Source: Paracoccus wurundjeri
Lineage (GTDB): Bacteria; Pseudomonadota; Alphaproteobacteria; Rhodobacterales; Rhodobacteraceae
DNA: 64,000 bases
Assembly (NCBI RefSeq): GCF_030678915.1
Contig: NZ_JAUUTZ010000003.1
Coordinates: 186,001 to 250,000 of the forward strand
Reading direction: 5' to 3'
The notes below the pieces were generated by a model, which had not been told where the DNA came from, ran no database searches, and worked only from the letters and a program-made list of their open reading frames with translations. A program made the position numbers and the translations under genes. This document shows, piece by piece, positions 1 through 16,525 of the stretch. Position 1 is the first letter of the stretch, and the number at the start of each line of letters is the position of its first letter.

Positions 1-263
1 ACCTTCGCCCGGAACCCGATGGCCAGACCCTGGGCGATCAGGATCAGCGGCGCAGCCTTTATCACCACCTCGGAAATGTTATACGCCGATGACAGCGGAT
101 CGATCAGCAGTCTGTAAAGGCCGCCGAGAGGTGGGGCCCCCAGAAAACCGAACAGGACCATGCTTCCCAGCAATGCCAGAATGAAGGTCACCAGCGGCAC
201 GAGCATAATGCTCTTGAGAGAAACCTCGTTTCGTTGGACAAGCGCGTATCGGTTCAACATCAT
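1..263 (-). CDS. ABC transporter permease, BMP/nucleoside type (partial)
   Basis: Only the N-terminal 87 codons are in the window; the gene runs off the left edge. The reading begins MMLNRYALVQR, followed by a hydrophobic segment (about residues 20-43), a short loop, and the stretch IAQGLAIGFRAK. That stretch matches the start of the conserved permease signature of the YufP/NupP (BPD_transp_2) group, which normally continues into an NIGAEGQ-like motif. The start codon overlaps the stop of the upstream ATPase gene, so the two are translationally coupled. Known role of the family: inner-membrane permease of substrate-binding-protein-dependent importers for nucleosides, purines or simple sugars. 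Next to demethylase genes, uptake of a methylated purine is a reasonable inference. The substrate-binding protein would lie outside the window. Confidence 0.75.
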   Translation of the reverse strand, partial: MMLNRYALVQRNEVSLKSIMLVPLVTFILALLGSMVLFGFLGAPPLGGLYRLLIDPLSSAYNISEVVIKAAPLILIAQGLAIGFRAK

Positions 264-1798: not shown

Positions 1799-1998
1799 AT
1801 GCTTCTCCCTGTTGTTGAGGACGACGCATGCTGGCAGCAGCCTGGACCAACGCACGCCAAGCTAGCGACAAAAGTCGTGTTATTATTCTTTCTTCACGCA
1901 AGGATCGGCTAGAATGTTAAGCTTACCGATCCGCCGAACGCTGGTTCCCTTTTTTGGTAACAAGGCGACCAAGGGGCGAGTAGATAAATTACAGAGAC

Positions 1999-2055: not shown

Positions 2056-2994
2056 ATGCAAAAGGTAGAGTTGAAAGACATTCGAAATTTCGTGCTTATT
2101 GCCCGGGCGGGCAGTCTGACACGCGCAACGATGGTGTCCGGCGTTCCAAAAGCGACGTTGAGCCACAGTATCCGTCGCTTGGAAGATCTGCTCGAGGTCG
2201 AACTGTTCCTCAGGTCCCAAAGGGGATTTCACCTGACCGATGCAGGCAATGCTTTGCTGGACAACAGCGCGCGCGTGTTCGACAGCATCGAAGCTGCGAC
2301 CAGCGCCGCTCAGCGTGCGCACAGTTCCCTGAACGGCAAGGTTCGCATCTTGGGTAGCACCGAGTTCGGAACCAGCATCATTGGCGCCGCCACCTTGCTG
2401 TTGGCGCGCGAGCATCCCGGCTTGTCATTCGAGACCCGGACCTATCCCGGCGACACGCCCCTGCCGGAGCCATCAGACTTCGATTGTTTAATCTTCGTTG
2501 GCACGGCGCCGTCGTCCGACCACGTGTGCCGGAAGCTTGGGAACGTCAGCTATCGCGCTTATGCAAGCCCTATCCTGCTAGAGAAGTGGAGTACTCCGGA
2601 AAGGATCGACGATCTGTCGCGTATGCCAGGCATCGAATACACGCGAAAGGGCATTGCCGAGCCTTGGCTGCTTCAGGACGATGACGGCAAGCAAGCCGCA
2701 AGATACGATATACGGTTCAGCGTGCACGACTACTGGATGGCGAAGTTCTATGCGGTATCAGGCGAAGCCGTCGCCTACTTGCCCGACTTCTTCGTCTACT
2801 ACGAGGTGGCGCAAGGCAGCCTTGTCCCGTTGCTGAAGCCGCCTGAGGATGTGGATCAGATTTCCGTGTGGGTGATATACGGCGCTGCCCGGCACAAGAA
2901 CCCGCGCGTAAAGCTGGTAGTTGATACCTTGTGCAAGCAGTTTTCCAGCGTCATTCATCATCCAGGGTATGCCTTGGTCCGCAGAACCGACTGA
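2056..2994 (+). CDS. LysR-family transcriptional regulator
   Basis: A 312-aa protein of normal LysR length. An N-terminal winged helix-turn-helix occupies about residues 5-62 (TRATMVSGVPKATLSHSIRR, then FLRSQRGFHLTDAG). An effector-binding domain of the periplasmic-binding-protein fold follows from about residue 90 (GKVRILGSTEFG). The HTH is close to the AphB/CrgA-like subgroup. It is divergent from the ABC importer genes and reads toward the demethylase operon across a 471-base gap, so it is the likely regulator of uptake, catabolism or both. The inducer is unknown; a methylxanthine would fit. A palindromic candidate site lies just upstream. Confidence 0.85.
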   Translation: MQKVELKDIRNFVLIARAGSLTRATMVSGVPKATLSHSIRRLEDLLEVELFLRSQRGFHLTDAGNALLDNSARVFDSIEAATSAAQRAHSSLNGKVRILGSTEFGTSIIGAATLLLAREHPGLSFETRTYPGDTPLPEPSDFDCLIFVGTAPSSDHVCRKLGNVSYRAYASPILLEKWSTPERIDDLSRMPGIEYTRKGIAEPWLLQDDDGKQAARYDIRFSVHDYWMAKFYAVSGEAVAYLPDFFVYYEVAQGSLVPLLKPPEDVDQISVWVIYGAARHKNPRVKLVVDTLCKQFSSVIHHPGYALVRRTD

Positions 2995-3465: not shown

Positions 3466-4521
3466 ATGAACGCCTTGACTCCACTTACCGCAGATCAAAG
3501 CTATCTGCGCCATTTCTGGCATCCTGTCGCAACCGTGAACGAACTTGAGGCTGCCGATCCGGCAGGCAACGGTCCGATCGGCAGGACGCTTCTGGATGAA
3601 CCACTGGTCATCGCCAAACTGGATGGAAAATACGTTGCCATGCGGGACCGTTGCGCGCATCGCTGCGCCCAGCTGTCTGTCGGAAAGGTGCTTGATAACA
3701 ACCGTATCCAGTGCCCGTATCACGGCTGGGAATACGGCGCCAGCGGCCGCTGCGAACTGATGCCAGCTTGTCCCAACGATGCAATTCCGAAAAAAGCGTT
3801 CACGCCCGCCTATGCCTGCGAAGAGCGGTATGGAATCATATGGGTCCGCCTGGACAGCTCGTGGGATTGCACAAATATTCCCTATTGCGAGGCTTGGGAA
3901 AACCCCGAGTACAAGCGCCAAATCATCGCAGAACCCTACAACTGGGACAGTTCGGCCGAACGCCGATGGGAAAACTTCACCGACTTCTCACACTTTGCCT
4001 ATGTGCATCCGGGCACCCTTTATGACCCGGCATATTCGGAACCGGCAATCGTGCCCGTGGATCGCGTGGGCGGCGAGCTTCGCTTCTTTATGGAGCCGGG
4101 CCGCGACATGTTGGACACATTGCCGGACGACAGCCCGTTGGGAAGCTGGAACTATCGGAACGCCATGCCGTTCAGCGTCAACCTGTCGATCAGGCTGTAC
4201 AAGAACGACAAGCCGTTCCTCCTCTGGACGACCTCCAGCCCAATATCGCAGAATTCGTGCCGCAACTTCATGATCATCGCGCATACCGATGACGACATGC
4301 CCGACAGTCAGCCGCTCGACTTCCAAAAACTCGTCCTGGCCGAGGATAAGCCCGTCATCGAATCCCAGCCCGGTCCGATCTACCTGGACGAGGTTTCGCT
4401 GCCGACGGACAAGATCTCGAACCAGTACCGGAAATGGTTGCGCGAACTCTCCACCGCCGCTGCCAAGGGCGAAGAAGCGTTCAAGGCGGCACTGTTCACC
4501 GATATCACAGAAAGCAAGTGA
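3466..4521 (+). CDS. Rieske oxygenase, NdmB-like methylxanthine N-demethylase
   Basis: A 351-aa complete Rieske non-heme iron oxygenase. The Rieske cluster ligands are C63-x-H65 and C83-x2-H86 (CAHRC, CPYHGW). The catalytic domain carries the bridging aspartate and facial-triad histidines D173, H176 and H181 in ENFTDFSHFAYVHPG. The opening SYLRHFWHPV and the C-terminal stretch WTTSSPISQNSCRNFMII match what I recall of Pseudomonas NdmB (theobromine N3-demethylase) more closely than NdmA. Expected reaction: O2- and NADH-dependent N-demethylation releasing formaldehyde, with electrons from a dedicated reductase. It is first in an operon with NdmC-, Rieske-, NdmE- and reductase-like genes. N3 specificity is inferred from resemblance only. 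Confidence 0.78.
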   Translation: MNALTPLTADQSYLRHFWHPVATVNELEAADPAGNGPIGRTLLDEPLVIAKLDGKYVAMRDRCAHRCAQLSVGKVLDNNRIQCPYHGWEYGASGRCELMPACPNDAIPKKAFTPAYACEERYGIIWVRLDSSWDCTNIPYCEAWENPEYKRQIIAEPYNWDSSAERRWENFTDFSHFAYVHPGTLYDPAYSEPAIVPVDRVGGELRFFMEPGRDMLDTLPDDSPLGSWNYRNAMPFSVNLSIRLYKNDKPFLLWTTSSPISQNSCRNFMIIAHTDDDMPDSQPLDFQKLVLAEDKPVIESQPGPIYLDEVSLPTDKISNQYRKWLRELSTAAAKGEEAFKAALFTDITESK

Positions 4522-4526
4522 CCGGC

Positions 4527-5348
4527 ATGAACGCACGTGAGGACGCAGCGGTCTGGAATCGTTGGTATCCCCTTGGGTCGCCAACGGACATCCGGCGACG
4601 GAAGGCAACAAAAACCTGGCTTCTGGGCCACGACATCGATCTTGAAATCCATAAGACTTGGATTTCCGCGTCGAGCGACTCCCGACCTTTGCCGGTGACC
4701 GAGCGGCTAGGATATGTCTGGACAAGCCTTGGCACGCCCGATGGACCCCCACAGCAGTTGCTGGAATACTACGAGGTCGATCGCCTGGTGATGAACATCT
4801 GGTCAACGCCGATCAAATGTTCGGGCCTGCGGATCGTGGACAACGTGATCGACAACGCGCATTTCCCGTTTCTGCATCCCAACATCCTGGGTGACGATGA
4901 TCACCTGGACCTGGTTCCGGGAGAGGCCAGTGTGGATACAGCGGGAGCGCTGTGGCTGAAGTCGCAGAAGGCTTGGCTGCCGCTTACGAACTCGGTCGCC
5001 GAATACACCTATCGGATCTCGGACCCGTATTCGGTGGTTCTCTTCATCCATCGTCCATCGACACCTGATCGATACGACTATCTCGGCATCTTCACACAGC
5101 CCTTGGATGAGGAAAACTTCGTTGCGCACAAGCTGCTTGCGTGGATAAGGGAGGATTGGATGGACGAGCGCCAGTTGAAAGCGGACCAGCAGAGCATCTC
5201 GGTCCAGGACAAGTATGTTCTCGAGCGGCATGTCCACAAGAAATTGCCGCTCAATGGTGCGGAAACCTCCATCAAGGTGGACAGCTCTTCTCTAAACTAC
5301 CGCGAATGGCTGCGGTCCAACCATGTGACCTATGGGGCGATGATATGA
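4527..5348 (+). CDS. NdmC-like oxygenase catalytic subunit lacking a Rieske domain
   Basis: A 273-aa protein. The non-heme iron motif is present (IDNAHFPFLH; D109, H112, H117), followed by an SRPBCC-type catalytic domain, but the N-terminal 100 residues contain no Rieske cysteine/histidine pairs. This is the unusual architecture of NdmC, the N7-demethylase that borrows its Rieske cluster from NdmD and needs the GST-like NdmE. The C-terminus (SSLNYREWLRSNHVTYGAMI) also fits NdmC. I chose the ATG at 4527, five bases after the previous stop; the upstream in-frame extension overlaps the ndmB-like gene. Its stop overlaps the next start (ATGA). It is a paralogue of the gene at 8533. Confidence 0.75.
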   Translation: MNAREDAAVWNRWYPLGSPTDIRRRKATKTWLLGHDIDLEIHKTWISASSDSRPLPVTERLGYVWTSLGTPDGPPQQLLEYYEVDRLVMNIWSTPIKCSGLRIVDNVIDNAHFPFLHPNILGDDDHLDLVPGEASVDTAGALWLKSQKAWLPLTNSVAEYTYRISDPYSVVLFIHRPSTPDRYDYLGIFTQPLDEENFVAHKLLAWIREDWMDERQLKADQQSISVQDKYVLERHVHKKLPLNGAETSIKVDSSSLNYREWLRSNHVTYGAMI

Positions 5349-5878
5349 CCTCGTATGTTGTTGCACTCGAAAAAGATGTCCGCGACTTTTCGATCGTCAG
5401 GTCGATGATGGGCGACAAGCCTCTGATCATCTGGCGAGGCATCAGCGGCGCGATCAACGTCTGGCTGGATCGCTGCCCACACCGTTCCGTAAGGCTCAGC
5501 GCAGGACGGAACATGGGTGAATATCTCGAAGGCGTGTACCATGGCTGGCGATTCGATGAATCGGGCAAGGTGATGCAGGTTCCCGCACTCCAGGGTCGCC
5601 CGCCTGACGACATCTCTGCAACCGTTTATTCCACGGCTGTGGCGGACGGCTTTGTCTGGGCTAGCGAACAAGAATGCTCGCCATCGGGCAGTGCGGGCGA
5701 ACCGTGCTATCCGGTCCACTTCGCGGCGCCATTCGATCAGGTCAGGCTTCATGTCGACGCCAACGTCAACCATCTCACACCTTGGGGCGTCGATGGAACG
5801 ATGGTTTACCCGACCGGCAATCCGGTGCAAAGGCGCGCGGAACTGTCGGCCATCAGGCGCAGACTGGAGGAGTCATGA
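5345..5878 (+). CDS. Free-standing Rieske-like protein with a missing cluster ligand
   Basis: A 177-aa protein resembling the N-terminal Rieske domain of NdmD and of aromatic-ring hydroxylases. The first ligand pair is intact (C44-P-H46). In the second pair the cysteine is replaced by glycine: the sequence reads EGVYHGW (G63...H66) where C-x-Y-H-G-W is expected. The codon is GGC, two changes away from a cysteine codon. A normal [2Fe-2S] Rieske cluster is therefore unlikely, although the fold around it looks kept. It overlaps its neighbours by ATGA at both ends, so translation is tightly coupled with the NdmC-like and NdmE-like proteins. It may be a structural subunit that has lost electron transfer, or a decaying duplicate of the intact protein at 7803. 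Confidence 0.7.
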   Translation: MTSYVVALEKDVRDFSIVRSMMGDKPLIIWRGISGAINVWLDRCPHRSVRLSAGRNMGEYLEGVYHGWRFDESGKVMQVPALQGRPPDDISATVYSTAVADGFVWASEQECSPSGSAGEPCYPVHFAAPFDQVRLHVDANVNHLTPWGVDGTMVYPTGNPVQRRAELSAIRRRLEES

Positions 5879-6516
5879 TACAGTTGCATGACTATCCCCT
5901 TTCGGGGAACTGCTTCAAGGTTCGCTTCCTGCTGGAGCAGCTTGGCCTAGACTACCAATCGATTCTTGTCGATTTTTATCCAGGATACGAGCACAAATCA
6001 CCGCGGTTTCTTGATATAAATCCGCTGGGACAGCTTCCGGCCATTGTGGATGACGGCGAAGCGATTCGCGATGCACAGGCCATCCTAGTCTATCTTGCAG
6101 CCGCATACGACAATTCTGACAAGTGGTTTCCGCGCGACCGTCAGGGCGAGGTCTATCAATGGCTTGCCTTCGCGGATCAACTGACCGGCTCTATCTCAGC
6201 CGCGCGGCTGCATGATGCTATGTTCTATCGGTTGGATGTGGGCAAGGCTCGGTCTGACGGCGTCAGGCTGCTGCGCGTCATCGACGAGCATCTCTGGTTC
6301 GCAGAGAAAGACGACCTGGAATGGCTGCTGCCGTTGCCGCACCCCACCATCGGAGATGTCGCGTGCTTTCCTTATATTGCACTCGCCGAAGAAGGTGGCA
6401 TCGACCTGGCTCCGTTTTCCTCCGTGTCGCGCTGGGTGGAGCGCTTCATGAGACTTGAGGGGTTCAAGCCGATGCCTGGCATGATGCCTCTTCCAATGCC
6501 GAAGGAAACGCCATGA
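5875..6516 (+). CDS. GST-like protein, NdmE type (copy 1)
   Basis: A 213-aa glutathione-S-transferase-fold protein: thioredoxin-like N-terminal domain (DYPLSGNCFKVRFLLEQLG, then INPLGQLPAI with the cis-proline, then RDAQAILVYLA), followed by an all-helical C-terminal domain. In the Pseudomonas caffeine system the GST homologue NdmE is a structural partner that holds NdmC and NdmD together rather than a conjugating enzyme. Position directly between the NdmC/Rieske genes and the reductase supports that role here. The start at 5875 overlaps the previous stop and excludes an upstream extension of 67 codons. Closely related to the gene at 9389. Confidence 0.78.
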   Translation: MIQLHDYPLSGNCFKVRFLLEQLGLDYQSILVDFYPGYEHKSPRFLDINPLGQLPAIVDDGEAIRDAQAILVYLAAAYDNSDKWFPRDRQGEVYQWLAFADQLTGSISAARLHDAMFYRLDVGKARSDGVRLLRVIDEHLWFAEKDDLEWLLPLPHPTIGDVACFPYIALAEEGGIDLAPFSSVSRWVERFMRLEGFKPMPGMMPLPMPKETP

Positions 6517-7460
6517 ACACTCAACGGGTAAAGATCAGGCGGATCGTAGAGCAAACGCCCGAAATCCGTTCGTTCGAACTGGTCCCCTGCGATGGATCGT
6601 CTGTCAAGTTCACGCCAGGCGACCATATTGACGTCTGCGTTGGCGACGGCCTTATCCGCCAGTACTCGCTTTGGAATGCCCCCAGGGACTGCGACGCCTA
6701 TCTCATCGGCGTGAAGCGCGAGCAGAATAGCCGGGGCGGATCTGCTGCTATGCACGCACTGAACGAGGGCGATGAGATTGAGGTGAGCCCGCCACGGAAT
6801 AACTTTGAGCTCCGTTCGGACGAGGGTCCGGTGATCCTTATTGCCGGGGGTATCGGCATCACACCCGTTCTGGCCATGGCGCGTCATCTGCAGTCCGTGA
6901 ACCGCAAATACGTCCTGCACCTCTTCGCCCGAAGCGCCGAGCATGCGCCGTTCAAAAGCGAACTTGCTGCCTTGGATGAGGCTCCCGTCCATCTTGGTCT
7001 TGTTCCGCCGACACTTAACGCCGTTCTAACTGGGATCCTATCCAATCCGACTACCGATGCACGTTTGTATTTCTGCGGACCCGGACCCTTCATGGACCTG
7101 ATCGAGCAACTGGCAAAGAACTGTGGCTGGAAAAGTGACCGGGTCCACCAAGAACGGTTCAGCGTCGATGCCGATTCTCTCGAACTTGACGGGGAGAGCT
7201 TCGAGGTGGTGCTCCAGAAATCGGGTGTCACCCTGACGGTTGCGGAGGACCAAACCATCATCGGTGCGATGGAGGAGGTCGGGCTTGAGCCATTGACATC
7301 CTGCGAGCAAGGGGTATGCGGCACCTGCCTGACCACCGTTCTGGAAGGCGAACCTGATCACCGCGATTTATATCTCAATCCGGCCGAAAAGGAATCCGGG
7401 ACGCTGATCATGCCATGCGTATCGCGTTGCAAGGGTAAGAGACTGGTGCTGGACCTGTGA
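6513..7460 (+). CDS. VanB-type oxygenase reductase (NdmD C-terminal half equivalent)
   Basis: A 315-aa class IA-type reductase: flavin domain (GDHIDV, RQYSLWNAP), NAD(P)H domain (LIAGGIGITPVLAMA, YFCGPGPFMD) and a C-terminal plant-type ferredoxin with C264-x4-C269-x2-C272-x29-C302. The last 50 residues (CEQGVCGTC to CVSRCKGKRLVLDL) closely resemble the end of NdmD as I recall it. NdmD carries an extra N-terminal Rieske domain; this protein does not, and such domains are encoded separately at 5345 and 7803. It is the only reductase in the window, so it probably serves all four oxygenase components. The start overlaps the GST gene stop (ATGA). Confidence 0.82.
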   Translation: MNTQRVKIRRIVEQTPEIRSFELVPCDGSSVKFTPGDHIDVCVGDGLIRQYSLWNAPRDCDAYLIGVKREQNSRGGSAAMHALNEGDEIEVSPPRNNFELRSDEGPVILIAGGIGITPVLAMARHLQSVNRKYVLHLFARSAEHAPFKSELAALDEAPVHLGLVPPTLNAVLTGILSNPTTDARLYFCGPGPFMDLIEQLAKNCGWKSDRVHQERFSVDADSLELDGESFEVVLQKSGVTLTVAEDQTIIGAMEEVGLEPLTSCEQGVCGTCLTTVLEGEPDHRDLYLNPAEKESGTLIMPCVSRCKGKRLVLDL

Positions 7461-7461
7461 T

Positions 7462-7695
7462 ATGGTAATGCGGCGCATATCTCTTGAAGGATCTCTCAAT
7501 ACCGAGTCCTGTCTTGCCATGGCCAGTCATTTTGCCCGGCGCCTTTCGCTATCGAGCACGATCGCGAACGCGACCCCCAGCCGCATCACGCTGACTCTGA
7601 CCGGGGACGAACGCCTTATCGACATGTTCGAAATTGCCTGCTGGCTTGGACCGGACGACGTGAACGTCGATACGATCACTGTAGAGACCATCTAG
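7462..7695 (+). CDS. Small conserved-looking protein of unknown function
   Basis: A 77-aa protein starting one base after the reductase stop (a second ATG lies at 7468), so co-translated with it. No family is recognised with confidence. The order of a basic helix (MASHFARRLSL), a strand-rich middle (SRITLTLTGDERLIDMFEIA) and an end reading WLGPDDVNVDTITVE loosely resembles the acylphosphatase-like ferredoxin fold, but the catalytic GxVQGVxFR loop is absent. It closes the first demethylase operon and could be an accessory or assembly protein. Confidence 0.5.
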   Translation: MVMRRISLEGSLNTESCLAMASHFARRLSLSSTIANATPSRITLTLTGDERLIDMFEIACWLGPDDVNVDTITVETI

Positions 7696-7802
7696 GGTCG
7701 GAAATCGAGGCTCGGCGTCATGAGGGACGCTGAAACGGACGCGCTGGACAATGGCACAACCAGCCAGCGTCTAGGGCTGAAAATGCAGAAATGAGGAATG
7801 GA

Positions 7803-8474
7803 ATGAAAACTTCAGAACTGGAAGCTGGCTGGTTCCCAGCGGGACTTCAGAACTATGTCCTTCCGAAGACGGCTGGACGCGTCATGATCTTCGACAACGA
7901 CATTGCCCTGTGGCGCGGCGAGGACGGGAAGATCCGCGCATGGGAAAACAGGTGCCCCCACAGGGGAATGCGCTTGTCCTACGGTATTGTCAGGGGCAAC
8001 ACGCTGACTTGCCTGTACCATGGCTGGACCTATGACGGGGCCGGCGCCTGCGCGGGCATCCCGGCGCATCCCGAACTGACTCCACCCAAGACGATCCGCG
8101 CCAAGGCCTATCGCGCGGCGGATTCCGGCGGGTTCATCTGGGTCGCCAATCCAGACGAGACAACGGAAGCGCCATCGATAGAAGGTGACTGGGTTCCCAA
8201 CCGATCGGTCCATATCGACTTGGCTCCGACCAGCCTGAACGAGCTTATAAAAGGGATGGATGCCGAGTTGGCGTTGAAGATTACCGATCGCGCCGCTGTC
8301 GTGCGCGTTCCCGGAGTGACAGGAGAAATCCTCCTCGCGTTCCTGAATATGAAGGAACACGGGGCCATGATCCACACCTCGATTCCCGCCAGTGCATCGG
8401 TGGACGCCGCGATCGCGGTCAGCAAGCTGACCGGCCGTCTACGCCAGATATTCAAGGCATCAAGCGCCGCTTGA
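7803..8474 (+). CDS. Free-standing Rieske protein (NdmD N-terminal half equivalent)
   Basis: A 223-aa protein with a complete Rieske motif: C51-P-H53 and C70-L-Y-H73 (NRCPHRG, CLYHGWTY). The opening GWFPAGL and IALWRGEDGKIRAWENRCPH resemble the N-terminal Rieske domain of NdmD, and the C-terminal 90 residues correspond to the linker that joins it to the reductase there. Here the protein ends before any flavin domain, so it must work as a separate electron-transfer subunit between the reductase (6513) and a Rieske-less NdmC-like subunit. I chose the ATG at 7803, preceded by AGGAATGG, over 7791. It begins a second block (Rieske, NdmC-like, NdmE-like) about 100 bases after the first operon. Confidence 0.78.
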   Translation: MKTSELEAGWFPAGLQNYVLPKTAGRVMIFDNDIALWRGEDGKIRAWENRCPHRGMRLSYGIVRGNTLTCLYHGWTYDGAGACAGIPAHPELTPPKTIRAKAYRAADSGGFIWVANPDETTEAPSIEGDWVPNRSVHIDLAPTSLNELIKGMDAELALKITDRAAVVRVPGVTGEILLAFLNMKEHGAMIHTSIPASASVDAAIAVSKLTGRLRQIFKASSAA

Positions 8475-8532
8475 TAGGCACTCAAGTCTAGCAAGTTGAT
8501 CGTCTCACTTCGACAAGCGAGGAGAATACATT

Positions 8533-9387
8533 ATGACAACCGATAATTTCACCCAGTCGCAATGGTATGCAATTGGCCGCCTTCCCGATTTCGACGGCGT
8601 AGCACAGAAGCCCGTTCGGCTGCTTTCCCGTGACTTGACTGTAAGCCACGAAGCTGGCGATCTTTCAGTGAAAGATGCCGAAGGGCACAGCCTTCTGACG
8701 CAAGTCCGTTATGGCCATCTATGGACGTCGCTAAGCGATAGGCCTCGCCCGCTTTACGACATGCCGGAATTTGACGAACCGGGTCGGCGTCTTGTCACTG
8801 CGGGTGGCGTGGGCGTGCGTTGCTCGGGGCTGCGCTGCGTGGAAAACTTCCTTGACATGGCGCATTTTCCCTTCGTCCATACCGATATCCTCGGCGTGGA
8901 AGAGCATTCGAGCGTCGAAAGCTATGACGTCAACATGGATGCGGAACAAGACGAAATCTGGGCGACCAAATGCAAGTTCTTCCAGCCCATGGCATCAGCG
9001 GCGGCATCAGGCGGCCAAATGACCGAATACAAGTATCGCGTCCCGCATCCGTATTCGACGATTCTGTACAAGACCTGCCCGATCCAGGAGGATGTCTGGG
9101 ATCTGGTGGGACTGTTCATCCAGCCCGTGGAAGAGGACGAATGCATCGTCCACTCGTTCATTCTGGTCTTTGACGATGAAAACACCGATACCGGTCTTCT
9201 TCACTTCCAGCAGAACATCTTCCTGCAGGATCGGATGATCCTCGAGAACCAGGTTCCCCGGAAACTGCCCCTCGATCCCCGTTGGGAGTTGCCGACCCGA
9301 GCAGACGCATCCTCCATCGCCTATCGCCGCTGGCTGAAGGCCAATGAACTTCAGTGGGGGGTCGCCCTCTTCAACGAGGCAGCATGA
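8533..9387 (+). CDS. NdmC-like oxygenase catalytic subunit lacking a Rieske domain (copy 2)
   Basis: A 284-aa protein with the iron motif FLDMAHFPFVH (D108, H111, H116) and no Rieske ligands at its N-terminus. Segments such as WATKCKFFQP, YRVPHPYSTILYKTCP and SSIAYRRWLK match Pseudomonas NdmC as I recall it, more strongly than the copy at 4527. Predicted N7-demethylase-type catalytic subunit that receives electrons from the intact Rieske protein encoded just upstream. It has a good GAGGAG ribosome-binding site, and the next gene starts one base after its stop. Confidence 0.8.
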   Translation: MTTDNFTQSQWYAIGRLPDFDGVAQKPVRLLSRDLTVSHEAGDLSVKDAEGHSLLTQVRYGHLWTSLSDRPRPLYDMPEFDEPGRRLVTAGGVGVRCSGLRCVENFLDMAHFPFVHTDILGVEEHSSVESYDVNMDAEQDEIWATKCKFFQPMASAAASGGQMTEYKYRVPHPYSTILYKTCPIQEDVWDLVGLFIQPVEEDECIVHSFILVFDDENTDTGLLHFQQNIFLQDRMILENQVPRKLPLDPRWELPTRADASSIAYRRWLKANELQWGVALFNEAA

Positions 9388-9388
9388 G

Positions 9389-10015
9389 ATGAAGCTGTTC
9401 GACTATGTCCTGTCCGGCAATTGCTACAAGATACGGCTGTTGCTGGATTTCCTTGAGCTTTCCCATGAAAAGCAAGCCGTGGACTTCTTTCCGGGGCGCG
9501 AACACAAGTCCGATGCGTTCCTCCAGATAAACCCGCTGGGCCAGATCCCGGTGCTGGAGGACGACGGAGCCTACATCCGGGACGCGCAGGCCATTCTCGT
9601 GTATCTCGCCTCGCGCTACGATCCGACGGGAACGTGGTGGCCGATCAACGATCCGTCCGAACTAGGTCGGGTCGCGCAATGGCTGGCCTTCGCGGACAGC
9701 ATCACGTCCACGGCGTCGGCGGCGAGACTGCATGACGTGCTGGGCTATGACCTCGACGTGGCGCAAGCAAGGGCCGGCGCTCACAAGTTGTTCCGAGTCC
9801 TGGATGACCATCTGGCCAACCAGGAGTTACAAGGGTTCAACTGGATCGCGGGATCGAACCCGACGGTGGCGGATATCGCGTGCTTCCCCTATGTGGCGCT
9901 GGCAGGGGACGGCGGCATCGAGTTGTTCTATTACCCGGCGATCCAACGCTGGATACGCAGGTTCGTCAAACTACCGCGCTTCAAGCTGATGCCGGGGATC
10001 AACATCTTCGACTGA
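9389..10015 (+). CDS. GST-like protein, NdmE type (copy 2)
   Basis: A 208-aa GST-fold protein. It shares long near-identical stretches with the copy at 5875: SGNCYK against SGNCFK, EHKS, INPLGQ, and the whole of RDAQAILVYLA. It also shares the ending FKLMPGIN/FKPMPGM. The start at 9389 lies one base after the NdmC-like stop. It is the predicted scaffold partner of the NdmC-like and Rieske proteins of this block. It is last in the operon and followed by a candidate terminator. Confidence 0.78.
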   Translation: MKLFDYVLSGNCYKIRLLLDFLELSHEKQAVDFFPGREHKSDAFLQINPLGQIPVLEDDGAYIRDAQAILVYLASRYDPTGTWWPINDPSELGRVAQWLAFADSITSTASAARLHDVLGYDLDVAQARAGAHKLFRVLDDHLANQELQGFNWIAGSNPTVADIACFPYVALAGDGGIELFYYPAIQRWIRRFVKLPRFKLMPGINIFD

Positions 10016-10035
10016 CCTGTCAGATTGCCACGACC

Positions 10036-10080
10036 GGGAACGTCGTCCGCTGTCAGGATACCGTTCCCAGTCCTTTTTTC
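10036..10080 (+). terminator. Candidate rho-independent terminator after the second NdmE-like gene
   Basis: GGGAACG (10036-10042) pairs with CGTTCCC (10062-10068) across a 19-base loop and is followed by AGTCCTTTTTTC. It sits 20 bases after the stop of the operon's last gene. The loop is long, so confidence is moderate. Confidence 0.5.
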
Positions 10081-10869
10081 TTCTCGCGTCAGCGGCGGGC
10101 TTGCCGATCTGCTCCTATCGAGTCGGCATCTTCATTTCCTCGGCGCCACTAGGCATATAGACGAAGTGCGCGAGCGCGCTCCAGGCAATGACGGAGAAGA
10201 CATCGCTCTCTTGGCGGTGCGGCGTAGCGCTCGGCCCTCGCGTTCTGGCGAGGAATAAAGATCAGTCGGCGAGAACTGCTGCAAACGGTTGCTATTGCGC
10301 CGAAATGCGTGGGCCTGGATCAGCAAATCCGAGAGGCCCTTCACTCGCTCTCGTTCATTCTGCGCACCAACGCCCCGCCTCTGTTCAGGCCGAGAGGCAA
10401 ACACTCCTCCTGAACAGGGTCGAATGGCGGCCTGTTACGCTTCGCTGCTGCGCAGGACTGTTTCTATTCGTTGCGCATCCAACGCCGAGAATCGCCCGCT
10501 TGCGGTGCTCTGTCTTACCTCTCGATAAATGGCACTCACCTGCCCGTCGAAAGGATAGCTTTCGCTGCTGCGTAATGGAGCGGGGTTTCCGACGCTTCGG
10601 CTTTGGGAAAACACAATCGAAGAAAAATTCGCCGTATCTCCGAATGAAGTTCATCGCTGTCACCACAGATCGTCCTTATGCTTTCTGAAATGCCCAGTCG
10701 AAAAGGTTTTGTTGTGTTTCTTCGGGTGAAGCACTGCTCGCAGCGATGAAAAAGGGGTAGGTCAGATCGTCTCCGAGGGAAACGTCGCAACTTATGCCGG
10801 TTATTTCGGTAGGCAGACGTGCTGCGAATATCTCAACTCGTTTAGTTCGAGTTCATCCGACAAGCGTCG
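10081..10869. other. No recognisable gene; boundary of catabolic block and IS debris
   Basis: About 790 bases with only short or low-quality open frames on both strands, none with family features or a convincing ribosome-binding site. The position between the demethylase operon and a truncated IS3-family transposase suggests decayed insertion-sequence flank. Confidence 0.4.
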
Positions 10870-11140
10870 ATGGGAACGAGAGCCAATGACGAGTTCAAAC
10901 GCAAAACCAGCCGCCCCAACGAGATGTGGCAAACCGATTTCACCTACTTCAAGATCATCGGTTGGGGCTGGGTGTATCTGTCGACCGTGCTCGACGATTA
11001 CTCGCGCTACATCATCGCCTGGAAACTGTGCACCACCATGCGCGCCGAGGATGTAACCGATACGCTGGAACTGGCCCTGGAAGCCTCGGGCTGCGACAGC
11101 GCGGCAGTGCTGCACAAGCCAAAGTTGCTCAGCGACAACG
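10870..11140 (+). pseudogene. IS3-family transposase (OrfB) fragment, integrase core
   Basis: The frame reads DEFKRKTSRPNEMWQTDFTY then WGWVYLSTVLDDYSRYIIAW, LELALEASGC and KLLSDN: the first part of the DDE (rve) catalytic core, with the first Asp in QTDFTY and the second in the SDN motif. The homology stops abruptly after SDN, where IS3 transposases continue with GPSYI. The start region is missing as well. The lost middle is replaced by IS110-family DNA, and the C-terminal end of the same type of transposase reappears at 11869. Confidence 0.7.
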
Positions 11141-11868
11141 TCTTATATCGGGAAGTTCTGGCTGCTTAGGTCAGCAGGTCATGGGGTATCCGGTGTCCCG
11201 GATGCCCTGATATGGTTACCCAAGCGGTCTCCGCCGTCAAGAAGCGGTCTCTCCCATAGCAAACACAGGGTACGCGCGATGGCTGCCCTCACCGTCCTTA
11301 AGACGAGATCCAAAATCCCAAGCGGAAGACCTGAACATTACTACGAGGTCAGCGAACTGCCTCCACGGATCTTGTCAGACAAGGGTCCTTCCGCCTGGGC
11401 TCGCCCCCTCGAAGAAGGGGCGATAGGGTTCGCCGTGTTTGACCACGGCGTGTACGGTGCGCGCCATCTTGGCCGCGATAGCGGTGTAGGCCTTGCGGCG
11501 CAGATGAGCATTGTGCCGGTCTCGCGCGATGTAGCGTTCGAACTTGTCGCGGAAGCTGTTGGTGCGTTTGAGCACTGCAACCTGTCCAGCCATCCAGAAG
11601 GTTCGGCGGAGCCGGGCGTTGCCATACTTTGAGATCTTGCTCTGGCCGCGGAACATGCCGGATTGGACGGTGGCGAGGTCCATTCCGCAGAACTTCAGGA
11701 ACTGGCGATGATGTCGGAACCGCCTTAGGTCACCAGCTTCAGCGAGGATGGTCAGGGCGTTGATCGGGCCGATCCCAGGGATTGTGGTCAGCAACTGGTA
11801 ATCGGGCAGATCGGACAGAAGCTCGACTGCCCGCACCTCGATCTCGTTGCGCTGTTTAACCAGGCTGC
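11141..11868 (-). mobile_element. IS110-family element remnant with transposase C-terminal half
   Basis: On the minus strand about 11868-11375 encodes the C-terminal (IS116/IS110/IS902) transposase domain: LLTTIPGIGPINALTILAEA, FLKFCGMDLA, SKYGNARLRR. The N-terminal RuvC-like DEDD half is absent; at about 11868 the frame runs into the antisense of the IS3 gene. Bases 11141-11374 are the downstream non-coding part. The remnant interrupts an IS3-family transposase, with loss of the middle of that gene and of its own 5' half, so neither element can move by itself. Confidence 0.65.
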
Positions 11869-12037
11869 GCCCTTCGTCGAACACTACAATCACCGGCGAT
11901 ACCATGAGAGCCTGAACAACGTGACGCCTGCTGATGCCTACTTCGGCAGGGCCGAGACCATCATCAAACAACGCGAAAGGATCAAGCGAAGGACCATCCA
12001 ACAGCGGCGCTTGCAACACCGCAAGCTCGCCGCGTAA
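11869..12037 (+). pseudogene. IS3-family transposase C-terminal fragment
   Basis: The plus-strand frame reads FVEHYNHRRYHESL, then TPADAYFGRAE, and ends QQRRLQHRKLAA before TAA. This is the typical end of an IS3-family OrfB, carrying the YH/NN region after the catalytic Glu. It is the continuation of the fragment ending at 11140; the intervening part of the transposase has been lost. Confidence 0.65.
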
Positions 12038-12072
12038 CATTAACCCAATGACGAGGCCTATACTCCGCTAAT

Positions 12073-12312
12073 TTACGCCCCGAGATGTGCCAGTTGTTCT
12101 GACGACGGACAGTTTCGCGCCTTGATGTCCCTGACAAGCGGCAGCAGAAAGAAGCAGATCGAGATACCTGCCAGCGAACCGATGGCCGTCAGTTCATGAA
12201 GTGTCGGAGATGCCTCGTCGGTCTCCCACCTGGCAAGGGTGGCTGCGTTGCCAGGTGGGAGGCAAACTCGGCAATCTCCATGTCGAGGCTTTGACGCGCG
12301 ATCTGAATTCAT
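12073..12312 (-). pseudogene. Degenerate XRE-type helix-turn-helix remnant
   Basis: The 79-aa frame contains ATLARWETDEASPTLHELTA, the second half of an XRE-type HTH. The expected first half (IARQSLDMEIAEFASHLA) is present just upstream but one frame over, preceded by an in-frame stop. The gene therefore looks frameshifted and inactive. A perfect 13-bp inverted repeat (12224-12236 and 12248-12260) falls on the break. It lies downstream of frmA on the same strand. Confidence 0.4.
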
Positions 12313-12340
12313 TTTCCCAGCATCGCCGCCCCCTGTCCTT

Positions 12341-13468
12341 CTAGTAAAGCACGACTGACCGAATCGACTCGCCGTTATGCATCAGGTCGAAACCCTTGTT
12401 GATGTCATCCAAAGGCATGGTGTGGGTGATCATCGGGTCGATCTCGATCTTGCCCTCCATGTACCAGTCGACGATTTTCGGCACATCGGTCCGGCCGCGG
12501 GCGCCGCCGAATGCGGTGCCTTTCCAGACCCGGCCGGTGACAAGCTGGAACGGACGGGTGCTGATCTCGGCTCCGGCGGCAGCGACGCCGATGATCACCG
12601 ACTGGCCCCAGCCGCGATGCGTGCATTCCAGCGCGTCGCGCATGACCTTGGTGCTGCCGGTGGCGTCAAAGCTGTAATCCGCGCCGCCGATCTGATCGAA
12701 CGGGGTTTTCGTCATCTCGACGATTTCCTGAACGACATTTTCGACATTCTTCGGATTGACGAAATGGGTCATGCCGAATTTCTCGGCCATTTCCTTCTTG
12801 TCGTCGTTCAGATCGACGCCGATGATCATATCGGCCCCGGCAAGGCGCAGCCCCTGAATCACGTTCAGGCCGATGCCGCCCAGGCCAAAAACCACCGCTT
12901 TCGCGCCGATCTCGACCTTGGCGGTATTGATGACCGCGCCGATGCCGGTGGTCACGCCGCAACCGATATAGCAGATCTTGTCGAAAGGCGCGTCTTCGCG
13001 AACCTTGGCGACGGCAATCTCCGGCAGAACAGTGTAGTTCGAGAAGGTGGAGCAGCCCATATAGTGATGGATCACCGTACCGTCATCGAGGCTGAAACGC
13101 GACGTTCCATCGGGCATCAGCCCCTGCCCCTGAGTCGCGCGGATCCGGGTGCAGAGATTGGTCTTGCCCGACAGGCAGGACGCACATTCGCGGCATTCAG
13201 GTGTGTAAAGCGGGATGACATGATCACCGGGTTTCACGGATTTAACACCCGGGCCAACCTCGACCACGACACCAGCGCCCTCATGACCCAGGATCGAGGG
13301 AAAGAGACCTTCCGGGTCGGCGCCCGAGCGGGTGAATTCGTCGGTGTGGCAGATGCCGGTCGCCTTGATCTCGATCAAGACCTCGCCTTCCTTCGGCCCT
13401 TCGAGATTGACCTCTATCACTTCCAGCGGTTTGCCTGCCTCGAAGGCTACGGCGGCACGGGTTTTCAT
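12341..13468 (-). CDS. frmA: S-(hydroxymethyl)glutathione dehydrogenase (class III alcohol dehydrogenase)
   Basis: A 375-aa zinc-dependent medium-chain dehydrogenase. Catalytic zinc ligands are C40 and H62-E63 with a later Cys; structural-zinc cysteines are C92, C95, C98 and C106. NAD-binding GLGGIGLN and the class III signatures [10 protein letters not shown] and [10 protein letters not shown] are present. It oxidises S-hydroxymethylglutathione, the spontaneous adduct of formaldehyde and glutathione, to S-formylglutathione. N-demethylation releases one formaldehyde per methyl group, so its place between two demethylase blocks makes metabolic sense; Pseudomonas caffeine clusters carry such genes too. 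The start at 13468 has GGAA upstream; an upstream extension of 28 codons was rejected. No S-formylglutathione hydrolase gene is adjacent. Confidence 0.92.
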
Positions 13469-14218
13469 GATCGATTCCTTTGTTTCAAGCCTGTCCGGCG
13501 ATGCGGGAGAGGCAATCTTCGCGTATTGAGGAAACTGGCGAAGCCTCGACAAAAGGGAGGATCAAGGCTTCGCCTGGTCAGGCGGCGGCGGAGGTAGCAG
13601 ACGCCAAACGTGTCTTGCTGACAAGATGACGGTAATGGTATGCACCATCCAAAAAAGCCAATTTATCTGGATCTAGCGTCCGAAAATGTGAACAGAGCAT
13701 AGCTCTTGCGCGATGAGTTGTGATTGCCAGCGTAAGGGTTGCTGGCGCTATTTTGATGCTGTTTCAAAAATTACCCAAGCAGAACATGGCCGAAGTGCAA
13801 CTAGCAATCGCCACATCATCTTGCCACGATCTTGTCGGCGAGACCGATTCTGGGCCGGGTTTCACATGCATCCCGTACGGTTGACATGTGCGGGATAGGC
13901 TTACATTACGTGATTATGGTGCGTCAGAGGCTTCATCGGCGACCTCAAATTGCATGGCTAGGCAAAAGTATGCAAAATCCTGCAATTCGAAGCGAACAAA
14001 ACCGCAACTTCGTCGCGGAAAATCAAAACGTTCTGGGTTCTTCAGACCGGGCCAACTAATGGCCACATGAAACAGGATATTAGATACGATCGCGTCAGAT
14101 CAAGCATGTCGCGAATTTTAGACACCCCGTTCATATGTAAAGTCTTTGTAACAGCGACACGTTGGGCTGACACTAATGGTCTATTCTATGCAGCAAAAGC
14201 TACAGAAGGAGTGACGAT
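13469..14218. other. Divergent intergenic region between frmA and the NdmA-like gene
   Basis: No supported gene in 750 bases; short open frames here lack family features. It should contain the promoters of both flanking genes. TTGACA (13881) with TACATT after 15 bases is a weak promoter candidate about 310 bases before the NdmA-like start. The ribosome-binding site AAGGAG lies seven bases before the 14219 ATG. Confidence 0.35.
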
Positions 14219-15298
14219 ATGGGCGCACGTTTGTTGATCGAGAACATGGAATTCCTCCGCCACTTTTGGCATCCGGTCGCTACCCTCGACGAGTTCGAGA
14301 AGGCCGACTCAATGGGCAATGGCCCTATGGCAGTCACCTTGCTGGACGAGAAGGTCGTTATTGCTCGTCTCGACGGAAAAATGGTCGCGATGAAGGACCA
14401 ATGTGTCCACCGCTCGGCGAAACTGTCGGGCGGCAAAGTCCAGGAGGACCAGCTTCAGTGCCCGTACCACGGCTGGATGTACAACGCAGAGGGCAAGTGC
14501 ACCTTCATGCCGGCATGCCCGACGCAGAAGATTTCTTCGCGCGCCAAGGTGGCGAACTATGAATGCGAGATGAAGTACGGCCTGATCTGGGTTCGCCTGG
14601 ATAGCTCGTGGAACGTGACTGAAATCCCGTATTTCAGCGTTGCCGACGACCCGAAGATGAAAATCGTAGTGCAAGAGCCCTACTGGTGGAATGCCAGCGC
14701 GCCGCGCCGCTGGGAAAATTTCACGGACTTTTCCCACTTTGCATTCGTTCACCCGGGCACGCTATTCGATCCTAACAACGCCGAGCCGCCCATCGTGCCG
14801 ATCGATCGCGTGAATGGCCAACTGCGCTTTATCTATGACACGCCTCCTGGCATGGATGTTCCCGATCAGGCGCCCATCGGCAATTTCACCTATCACTGCA
14901 GCATGCCGTTCACGATCAACCTGGCGGTTCAGAAGTATGTAGGGAACAGCCTTCACGTCCTGTTCAACGTGTCCTGCCCGGTGAACGCGAAGCAGACGAA
15001 GAACTTCCTAATTTTCGCCCGCGAGAAGAGCCTGAACGATTCGGATCATCCCCACATCGCCTTCAACGACCTCGTCTTTGCCGAGGACCAGCCGGTCATC
15101 GAATCGCAGTGGCCAGAAGAGATCTATGAAGACGAGCTGTCGGTCGTGACCGACAAGATTTCGATACAGTACAGGAAATGGATCAAGGAACTGGAAACCG
15201 CCCACGCGCAGGGTAAGGAAGCTTTCGAGAAGGCTCTCCTGTCTCCAGTTCTGGAAAGCGACCGGATGCATCCTGAACTACAAGCGGCTGCGAGCTGA
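14219..15298 (+). CDS. Rieske oxygenase, NdmA-like methylxanthine N-demethylase
   Basis: A 359-aa complete Rieske oxygenase: cluster ligands C62-x-H64 and C81-x2-H84 (QCVHR, CPYHGW), and iron motif ENFTDFSHFAFVHPG (D170, H173, H178). The stretches EPYWWNAS, GTLFDPNNAEPPIVP, SLHVLFNVSCPV and IAFNDLVFAEDQPVIESQWP agree closely with Pseudomonas NdmA (caffeine N1-demethylase) as I recall it, whereas the paralogue at 3466 looks more like NdmB. Predicted to remove an N1-methyl group using electrons from the reductase at 6513. It is first in a short operon with two unknown small proteins and a VOC protein. Regiospecificity is an inference. Confidence 0.8.
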   Translation: MGARLLIENMEFLRHFWHPVATLDEFEKADSMGNGPMAVTLLDEKVVIARLDGKMVAMKDQCVHRSAKLSGGKVQEDQLQCPYHGWMYNAEGKCTFMPACPTQKISSRAKVANYECEMKYGLIWVRLDSSWNVTEIPYFSVADDPKMKIVVQEPYWWNASAPRRWENFTDFSHFAFVHPGTLFDPNNAEPPIVPIDRVNGQLRFIYDTPPGMDVPDQAPIGNFTYHCSMPFTINLAVQKYVGNSLHVLFNVSCPVNAKQTKNFLIFAREKSLNDSDHPHIAFNDLVFAEDQPVIESQWPEEIYEDELSVVTDKISIQYRKWIKELETAHAQGKEAFEKALLSPVLESDRMHPELQAAAS

Positions 15299-15327
15299 CG
15301 CTCGGCCAGATTTCAGGAGATATTCCA

Positions 15328-15648
15328 GTGTCAGTCCAATTCACGACGAGTTCTCCCGATGCGCTGCTTCGGGAGTTCAACCAGAGAATCGTCCAGGAAG
15401 AAACCTGGGGTAAGGCGGAAGGCTGGGTGCTGCAGGAGTGCGAAGCCTTCTACCAGCATTCCGAGGACATGTCGGATGTCGGCGCAAGGCTTGTGCCAAG
15501 CGTCGATGCAGGCACGTTGACCTTTGAACTTCAGGCCGATGGCGGCAAGGGCATTCCACCCGATCTGACCAAACTGTATTACACGAGGCTGGTGGAAACC
15601 TTTCTGCGGTGGATGGACGTGCGCTTTGATGAGGTTCGACTGAACTGA
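15328..15648 (+). CDS. Unknown 106-aa protein, first of a tandem paralogous pair
   Basis: The start is a GTG with AGGAG about ten bases upstream. I recognise no family. By eye it aligns with the next gene: FNQRI/FNASV near the N-terminus, a W...FYQHSEDM / W...YFTHAHPEW block, ARLVPSVDAGTLTFEL / SWVLPSVRQRSLVFNI, then LYYTRLVETFL / AAYHAELVGTL. It looks like a small soluble alpha/beta protein. Position directly after the NdmA-like gene suggests an accessory role in methylxanthine metabolism, which is not established. Confidence 0.6.
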   Translation: MSVQFTTSSPDALLREFNQRIVQEETWGKAEGWVLQECEAFYQHSEDMSDVGARLVPSVDAGTLTFELQADGGKGIPPDLTKLYYTRLVETFLRWMDVRFDEVRLN

Positions 15649-15678
15649 GCAGTCACGAACCCGTCAAGGAGAAACGAT

Positions 15679-16050
15679 TTGGAACGGAAAGGAAGGAAGT
15701 TGGCTTTGTATATGAACACCGCCGAACCGGAGAAGATTCTTCGGGCATTTAACGCGTCGGTCGGCAAGATCGACCAACCTCATGACGGCGCAAGATGGCT
15801 TCGGCCGAAGAACTCGGACTACTTCACGCATGCGCACCCGGAATGGGCTTACAAGTCATGGGTGCTGCCCAGTGTCCGCCAGAGATCACTGGTGTTCAAC
15901 ATCATCAGGCCCGAGGACCGCTATGTTTCGGTGAAAGCCTATGCCGCCTACCACGCCGAGCTTGTCGGCACGCTGATGGATGCGGGATTGGCGAACCCTC
16001 TGGACATAAAGATGTCGTCGCGATGCGCCGACGGCGACCTCAATGCCTAA
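15679..16050 (+). CDS. Unknown 123-aa protein, second of a tandem paralogous pair
   Basis: It begins at TTG with AAGGAGAA eight bases upstream; an internal ATG (residue 12, MNTAEPEKIL) is an alternative start. It shares with the previous gene the order FN..., aromatic/His block, (V/L)PSV...(L/F)xF and a (Y/H)xxxLV(E/G)T(F/L) helix, so the two are probably an old tandem duplication. No known domain recognised, no signal peptide or membrane segment. It lies between the NdmA-like operon start and a VOC protein gene. Confidence 0.6.
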   Translation: MERKGRKLALYMNTAEPEKILRAFNASVGKIDQPHDGARWLRPKNSDYFTHAHPEWAYKSWVLPSVRQRSLVFNIIRPEDRYVSVKAYAAYHAELVGTLMDAGLANPLDIKMSSRCADGDLNA

Positions 16051-16075
16051 CCTCAAGAGAAGTAAGGACACACCG

Positions 16076-16525
16076 ATGGCTAGTGCAGACACGTTCCAAC
16101 CAATGCACAACATCTTCTGCGAAGATGTAGAGAAACAGAAGCAATTTTATGCTGCGATCTTGGGCTGGGATGATGTTCCCGAAGCCTCTTCGCCCATCTA
16201 CCGGGTTCTGCAGGGCAACGGCTTCCAACTGGCCTTCAACGGTATCCGGGCCTATGAGCTTCTGGGTCTGAAGGATCGCGAGAGAAGCAGGACCCCGACA
16301 TCCACCGTCGGCACGATGGTAACGTTCGTGGTCGAGGACTGGGCAACGGTTGACGAGATCGCGCGCAAGCTGCCCGAGCTTGGTGGGTCGATCGTCAAGG
16401 GGCCGTTTGCTACCTATTACGGGCAATGGCAGTTGATCTTCAACGATCCAGAATTCAACATTGCGCGCATCACCGCGATGACTATCCCCGAGGTTGCCGA
16501 AATTCCGGTTGTCAATTTCGACTAG
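16076..16525 (+). CDS. VOC-family (glyoxalase/dioxygenase-like) protein
   Basis: A 149-aa protein of the vicinal-oxygen-chelate fold: HNIFCEDVEKQKQFYAAILGW opens with the first beta-alpha-beta module, and the second module ends GQWQLIFNDPEFNIARI. The metal ligands usual in glyoxalase I are not clearly conserved, so the reaction cannot be named. The start at 16076 has AAGGA six bases upstream; the in-frame codons before it overlap the preceding gene. Last gene of the NdmA-like operon. Confidence 0.7.
   Translation: MASADTFQPMHNIFCEDVEKQKQFYAAILGWDDVPEASSPIYRVLQGNGFQLAFNGIRAYELLGLKDRERSRTPTSTVGTMVTFVVEDWATVDEIARKLPELGGSIVKGPFATYYGQWQLIFNDPEFNIARITAMTIPEVAEIPVVNFD

Follow-up and report, generated by a model that had tools for sequence, protein, structure and literature searches.

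A predicted methylxanthine N-demethylase island of Paracoccus wurundjeri with stand-alone Rieske genes and two NdmC-like trios

We analyzed a window of 64,000 nucleotides from Paracoccus wurundjeri (positions 186001-250000 of contig 23, NZ_JAUUTZ010000003.1, in a genome of 5.08 Mb) that carries a gene island related to the NdmABCDE methylxanthine N-demethylation system of Pseudomonas putida CBB5. According to a 2015 review (PMC4408171), NdmD of CBB5 supplies both NdmA and NdmB, and NdmC, which has no Rieske cluster, forms an active complex together with NdmD and NdmE. Judging from its gene content, the P. wurundjeri island most probably encodes a pathway that uses O2 and NADH to remove the N-methyl groups of caffeine-type methylxanthines, leaving xanthine. 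Instead of one split NdmD it has two trios, each consisting of an NdmC-like catalytic subunit, a Rieske-type protein and an NdmE-like glutathione S-transferase (GST) protein, namely: C1-R1-E1 and R2-C2-E2. They lie in a single tight plus-strand operon (3466-10015) in the order NdmB-like gene, C1, R1, E1, the reductase gene Red, a 77-amino-acid (77-aa) gene, R2, C2 and E2, with ATGA overlaps at the C1-R1, R1-E1 and E1-Red junctions (Table 1). A first-pass annotation of positions 3466-16525 had also read the region as a methylxanthine N-demethylase island; the eight genes that it named are open reading frames (ORFs) at the starts it gave, with the domains it assigned, but it overlooked R1 and the 77-aa gene.

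The identity of the island was assessed against the canonical cluster that P. putida MT178 carries on plasmid pTmex-577K, and against the solved CBB5 enzymes (PDB 6ick/6icl). By BLAST, the NdmA-like protein is 66.7% identical to P. putida NdmA and the NdmB-like protein 54.0% identical to NdmB. The two score 558.9 and 434.5 bits against solved CBB5 NdmA and NdmB, respectively; the family that comes next reaches 110.7 and 109.5 bits. Such likeness is far above chance expectation. Methylxanthine N-demethylation, as proposed in the first-pass annotation, is strongly supported. At the specificity positions 282/286 (NdmA numbering), N/F is found in all six NdmA-type rows of the alignment and Q/L in all nine NdmB-type rows. 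According to PMC8055839, two mutations switch N1 to N3 demethylation; ‘NdmA QL mutant’ is the title of PDB entries 6icp and 6icq, whose sequence has Q and L at 282/286 in our alignments. Thus, overall likeness and the specificity residues together lead to the predicted N1 and N3 assignments. Among the accessory proteins, Red matches NdmD residues 283-588 at 41% identity, while E1 and E2 are 52.4% and 53.2% identical to NdmE, respectively. In addition, xdhA, xdhB, xdhC and guaD genes above the NCBIfam cut-offs are present on contig 34 of the same genome.

The split of NdmD that had been proposed for this locus stands insofar as the Rieske protein and the reductase are separate genes, Red having only the Fer2 and NAD-binding parts, as first described. 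The separate Rieske gene seen at 7803 is R2. A second Rieske-type gene exists, R1, which begins at 5345 between C1 and E1, and because of it the operon has two trios. The iron triad is intact in both C1 and C2, and neither has a Rieske cluster, as is characteristic of NdmC. The two NdmC-like proteins are not equivalent, however: C2 is 47.5% identical to canonical NdmC and C1 only 30.4%. R2 and R1 are 31% and 28% identical, respectively, to the N-terminal part of NdmD. At the specificity positions, C2 has Q/F like all six canonical NdmC rows, and C1 has Q/S like the other members of its group (5 of 5 C1 rows).

R1 departs from R2 in its cluster ligands. R2 has the canonical CxH...CxxH set. R1 keeps the first motif (CPH), but the second reads GVYHGW in place of CxYHGW, so that GxxH results and Gly63 occupies the position of a ligand Cys. 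Gly63 occurs in all eight operons compared (five distinct R1 sequences), and no other Rieske stretch in our comparison listing has Gly at that position. An assembly error was considered as its source and rejected, since the same GGC codon is used in all eight operons. With respect to four other operons, dN/dS (the ratio of nonsynonymous to synonymous substitution rates) is 0.09-0.16 for R1 and 0.06-0.07 for C1, inside the range of the other genes, and both are under purifying selection. We considered whether C1-R1-E1 is a functionless, decaying duplicate, as the lost ligand Cys, the shortness of R1 (177 aa compared to 223 aa for R2) and the very long branches of C1 and R1 could indicate. With R1 frames free of stops in 8 of 8 operons, dN/dS values of 0.06-0.16 like those of other genes and an intact iron triad in C1, this is very unlikely. 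C1-R1-E1 is a conserved and selected, if unusual, module.

Two cysteines, Cys111 and Cys121, are both found in all eight R1 rows and neither in the R2 rows, and the Rieske protein of locus L015 has a Cys aligned with Cys121. Because the R1 rows are close relatives, this is weak evidence that either residue might serve as a replacement ligand for a cluster in R1. Fold models of modest quality for R1 (predicted local distance difference test, pLDDT, 75) and C1 (pLDDT 66), used for fold class only, have GxtA/SxtT as their best match.

In order to place the two trios, we compared 46 loci, which were picked by likeness to C1, C2 or NdmA, so that the frequencies of split and fused forms are biased; 20 of the stretches were taken after a C1 survey of the order rather than from every matching genome. 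A Rieske frame free of reductase is found in 37 loci, and eight have a single frame for both, i.e. a fused NdmD. A ninth fused locus, on a plasmid of Cupriavidus sp. EM10 (L019), is counted by kinship, its frames being interrupted; ndm cluster matches there are fragmented in the NdmA, NdmC, NdmE and NdmD regions. The 37 split loci comprise the eight island copies and 29 others, and in none of the latter is any ORF within the fetched stretch best matched by NdmA or NdmB. The combination of a Rieske-less NdmC with a GST partner, which had been supposed to be specific to NdmABCDE, is thus not so. Three of the fetched alphaproteobacterial loci are fused; in this biased sample, separate Rieske genes are frequent among the alphaproteobacterial loci. 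Many of the 29 adjoin BMP transporters and purine-type deaminases, the latter including proteins whose nearest families are 8-oxoguanine deaminase (366.6 bits, below the cut-off of 532) and guanine deaminase (cut-off exceeded). The host genome itself has a further split Rieske-NdmC-GST module on contig 56 (L040, 1900-10172), accompanied by a reductase of its own as well as a BMP transporter and an acylphosphatase-like gene. Split operons of this type recur in Rhodobacterales and rhizobia, most of them with an acylphosphatase-like gene and purine-type deaminases, and we found no description of them in the literature searched.

The spread of such genes was gauged in samples of genomes in which the host was counted. 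Of 385 genomes sampled from the class, 8 have relatives detected with C2 (E 1e-30); of 390 from the order, 24 have relatives detected with C1 (E 1e-25), whereas NdmA/B-type proteins are present in 2 of 398 from the phylum (E 1e-70). Among 23 other genomes of the genus that were listed, one has the C1 gene (93%).

The trees were built without the near-identical operons L010-L012, and the Rieske tree also without L085, L089, L093-L095, L097 and matches below 75 bits. C2 falls with the split modules (support 87/85), and the canonical NdmC proteins make up a separate clade (100/100). The placement of C1, on a branch of length 2.86, is uncertain, and the approximately unbiased (AU) test does not reject holding it with NdmC (p 0.44). 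In a short search made without bootstrap, E1 joins a group (98) in which the GSTs from the fused clusters and from two split loci are found, and E2 groups (98) with a protein from a Rhodobacteraceae metagenome-assembled genome; the two trios may well be of different origin. The nine fused reductases all lie on one side of a 98/96 branch. An outgroup of other reductases came out scattered in this tree and did not root it, so that either fusion or fission may have come first.

These data bear on whether the island is simply a canonical NdmABCDE whose NdmD has broken into a reductase and one Rieske gene, with both NdmC-like proteins as equivalent N7 subunits. Every canonical part is present, and C2 and NdmC as one clade are not rejected by the AU test (p 0.121). 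The existence of two Rieske-type genes, one of them without a ligand Cys, the length of the C1 branch with 30% identity to NdmC, and the frequency of separate Rieske genes in the fetched alphaproteobacterial relatives make this quite improbable. The part of the earlier reading that derives the locus from a broken-up NdmD thus fares poorly, given those relatives and the position of C2 among them. By its NdmA, NdmB, NdmC-type and NdmE-type parts the system belongs to the Ndm kind; it is not a canonical member, because a fused NdmD is absent.

A number of points weigh against methylxanthine demethylation by the whole island. We found no turnover data for any alphaproteobacterial copy. The NdmB-like protein is almost equidistant from its two references by BLAST (54.0% and 403 bits to NdmB, 54.8% and 389 bits to NdmA), so that its predicted N3 assignment hangs on two residues. 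The Q/F residues of C2 were tried as a mark of an N7-demethylase and dropped: they do not discriminate, since they are shared by 40 of 53 NdmC-family rows, including modules without an assigned function. It is with such modules, and not with NdmC, that C2 groups, within the limit set by the AU test above. The trio C1-R1-E1 falls outside the canonical scheme, because its Rieske-type protein lacks the ligand Cys, and is left unexplained by it. In three of the eight island copies, those of Komagataeibacter intermedius, Gluconobacter potus and P. shandongensis, which are draft genomes, no NdmA-type gene was found in the genome. Finally, of the frmA-frmB pair that flanks Ndm clusters only frmA is in the island; frmB has no match in the window or the adjoining upstream stretch, and a frmB-like gene (49% match) is located on contig 4 of the same genome.

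Some of these points could also mean that NdmA and NdmB act on methylxanthines while the two split modules were merely recruited alongside and act on another N-methylated or oxidised purine. The sister modules adjoin the deaminases and BMP transporters described above without NdmA or NdmB, and the Q/F residues of C2 are also those of modules without an assigned function. We regard this as improbable, though less so than a simply broken NdmD: in 8 of 8 copies the modules are co-directional in one operon with NdmB and the only reductase of the island, and the conversion of caffeine to xanthine requires an N7 step for which C1 and C2 are the sole candidates in the island.

On the favoured reading, complete demethylation to xanthine, electrons from NADH would pass through the flavin and plant-type 2Fe-2S cluster of Red to the built-in Rieske clusters of NdmA (N1) and NdmB (N3), and from Red through the stand-alone R2 to C2 (N7). 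E2 would hold R2 on C2, a role like the one proposed for NdmE with respect to NdmD and NdmC. The formaldehyde released would be passed to FrmA and the xanthine to the host xdhABC products. As C1 keeps its iron site while R1 lacks a canonical cluster ligand, C1 is most likely either fed by R2 in a mixed complex or a non-catalytic partner.

The 77-aa frame (7462-7695) stands out among the 735 open stretches of at least 50 codons in the window (E 1.3e-24) in a search with a profile built solely from 12 small genes that adjoin split modules in other genomes, two of which are annotated as acylphosphatase in their records. The window copy has no Pfam match, the gathering score of acylphosphatase (PF00708) not being reached, and two relatives scanned straddle the cut-off of 22.5 bits (15.4 for L015, 23.9 for L090); the protein therefore looks like a degenerate acylphosphatase relative. 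Such a gene accompanies 31 of the 37 split loci (all eight island copies and 23 of 29 others) compared to 0 of 9 fused loci. The Fisher p of 8.9e-6 for this association (43 rows, excluding L082, the C1 rows and any second row from the same locus) ignores kinship, with only 2-3 independent pairs on the tree. As these changes are too few for a test on the phylogeny, the gene was set aside as a statistical partner of the split form.

A bolder proposal is that the island represents a third Rieske oxygenase layout, in which each role is filled by a chain of its own: the catalytic subunit, the Rieske carrier, the GST scaffold, an adaptor (the acylphosphatase-like protein) and the reductase. The two modules would then form one mixed complex in which R1 would have lost its cluster and be a placeholder, with R2 feeding both C1 and C2, and the reach of the system might extend to a methyl position or substrate outside that of NdmABCDE. 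We put this forward tentatively, as a reading that is less likely than not.

The operon is found well beyond Paracoccus. A stretch of 6552 bases (6.55 kb) is 100% identical in K. nataicola (plasmid pKNA08, of kombucha origin and typed as conjugative), K. intermedius TF2 and G. potus, and the presence of a relative in kombucha is supporting context for the proposed substrate. With respect to that copy (L012 omitted), identity is 96.6% in P. versutus, 91.0% in P. shandongensis, 88.5% in the window and 84.2% in Pseudooceanicola. Identity among the acetic acid bacteria and the 96.6% in P. versutus thus point to very recent transfer among them. In the window, conjugation genes adjoin the island, in agreement with the mobile context first proposed, and for the adjoining trb genes Paracoccus plasmids are among the best matches (e.g. 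a P. saliphilus plasmid at 82% nucleotide identity). NdmA, the small genes s1 and s2 and the VOC gene accompany the operon in the window, P. versutus, K. nataicola and Pseudooceanicola; in Paracoccus sp. MKU1, NdmA is on a separate contig (94%). In Pseudooceanicola nitratireducens, a stretch of ~33 kb holds the NdmB operon together with frmA, the NdmA module, a BMP transporter and a xanthine-dehydrogenase-like gene, which is perhaps an older arrangement of the island.

In the P. wurundjeri window, the operon is followed, from left to right, by insertion sequence (IS) remnants, frmA on the minus strand, the NdmA-like gene, the two small genes and the VOC gene. The island is wider than first drawn, with frmA inside it and a LysR gene and a BMP-type ATP-binding cassette (ABC) transporter before it; the conjugation genes lie to the right. 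The site of the IS remnants, between E2 and frmA, is taken in P. versutus and P. shandongensis by a 290-aa ORF that we tentatively read as a helix-turn-helix (HTH) regulator. In the three acetic acid bacteria copies, frmA after E2 is matched only in pieces (residues 1-134 and 149-213). Neither s1 nor s2 has a family in Pfam or NCBIfam, and the best relative of s1 among solved structures reaches only E 0.33; close copies of both adjoin NdmA in four loci, and s2 also weakly matches proteins of other plasmids. A scan for promoters and terminators gave no signal exceeding that of shuffled sequence.

Table 1. Features of the island and its left flank (positions within the window).
Feature	Position	Strand	Remarks
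BMP-type ABC transporter ATPase	260..1855	-	permeases, BMP binding protein and OmpK/Tsx-like outer-membrane protein continue upstream, beyond the window edge
LysR-type regulator	2056..2994	+	counterparts 77-90% identical in P. versutus, K. nataicola, P. shandongensis and Pseudooceanicola loci
NdmB-type methylxanthine N3-demethylase (predicted)	3466..4521	+	own Rieske domain and VanA_C; Q/L specificity residues
C1, divergent NdmC-like catalytic subunit	4527..5348	+	VanA_C, no Rieske; iron triad D109, H112, H117, D228; pocket Q/S
R1, Rieske-fold protein	5345..5878	+	Pfam Rieske E 1.7e-15; Gly63 at second cluster Cys position
E1, NdmE-like GST protein	5875..6516	+	GST_N
Red, VanB-type reductase	6513..7460	+	flavin/NAD part and plant-type 2Fe-2S (Fer2), no Rieske
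Degenerate acylphosphatase-like protein, 77 aa (putative)	7462..7695	+	profile match; frequent neighbour of split Rieske-NdmC-GST modules
R2, stand-alone Rieske protein	7803..8474	+	full CxH...CxxH ligand set
C2, NdmC-like catalytic subunit, predicted N7-demethylase subunit	8533..9387	+	VanA_C, no Rieske
E2, NdmE-like GST protein	9389..10015	+	GST_N
IS remnants	10870..12040		rve integrase fragment 10870-11169 (+); IS110-type transposase 11375-12040 (-)
frmA, S-(hydroxymethyl)glutathione dehydrogenase, formaldehyde removal	12341..13468	-	above NCBIfam cut-off
NdmA-type methylxanthine N1-demethylase (predicted)	14219..15298	+	Rieske and VanA_C; N282/F286
s1, small conserved protein	15328..15648	+	no Pfam/NCBIfam family
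s2, small conserved protein	15679..16050	+	distant paralogue of s1
VOC (glyoxalase-fold) protein	16043..16525	+	follows s2

Compared to known systems, the island shares with NdmABCDE of P. putida CBB5 its NdmA, NdmB, Rieske-less NdmC, NdmE-like GST, VanB-type reductase and frmA. It differs in that a separate gene encodes the Rieske protein of the N7 system, and in having two catalytic subunit-Rieske-GST trios and no fused NdmD, as well as an R1 without the ligand Cys and an acylphosphatase-like gene. The P. putida cluster also has an NCS2 symporter, whereas the window has the BMP transporter beside the island and no NCS2 symporter by tblastn. With the split modules of Rhodobacterales and Rhizobiales (e.g. 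on Agrobacterium pAtCFBP7129a, and that on contig 56 of the same genome), it shares the separate Rieske protein, the Rieske-less catalytic subunit and the GST, mostly the acylphosphatase-like gene and often a BMP transporter. Those modules differ in that no NdmA or NdmB is seen nearby, purine-type deaminases are often present and, in 26 of the 29, the fetched stretch has no reductase. The best solved sequence match of C2, R1 and R2 is SxtT/GxtA (PDB 6wn3, 6wnc), which in contrast has the Rieske and catalytic domains in one chain and acts on saxitoxin-type substrates.

In the 2015 review (PMC4408171), NdmCDE is described as the first reported example of an oxygenase that has its Rieske domain detached and joined to the reductase instead. 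In the present island the domain is detached without being joined to the reductase, and this arrangement recurs in alphaproteobacteria; it offers a natural system for working out from which cluster each iron site is supplied. In the literature searched, whose returns did not include Summers 2013 and Kim 2019, we found no account of a stand-alone Rieske gene that accompanies NdmC, in keeping with the earlier suggestion that the architecture may be undescribed. Two concrete oddities lend themselves to testing: a ligand-less Rieske-type protein maintained by selection, and an acylphosphatase-like partner that had been overlooked. With regard to ecology, a cacao-fermentation metagenome study (PMC12417404) reports methylxanthine N3-demethylase (K21723) reads from Acetobacteraceae and Paracoccus, read by its authors as theobromine biosynthesis; demethylation by a relative of the present operon seems the likelier source. 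Since several acetic acid bacteria, including one of kombucha origin, share the identical operon and a near copy is present in Paracoccus, our results suggest that the use of caffeine or theobromine may be spreading by plasmids in tea and perhaps cacao fermentations.

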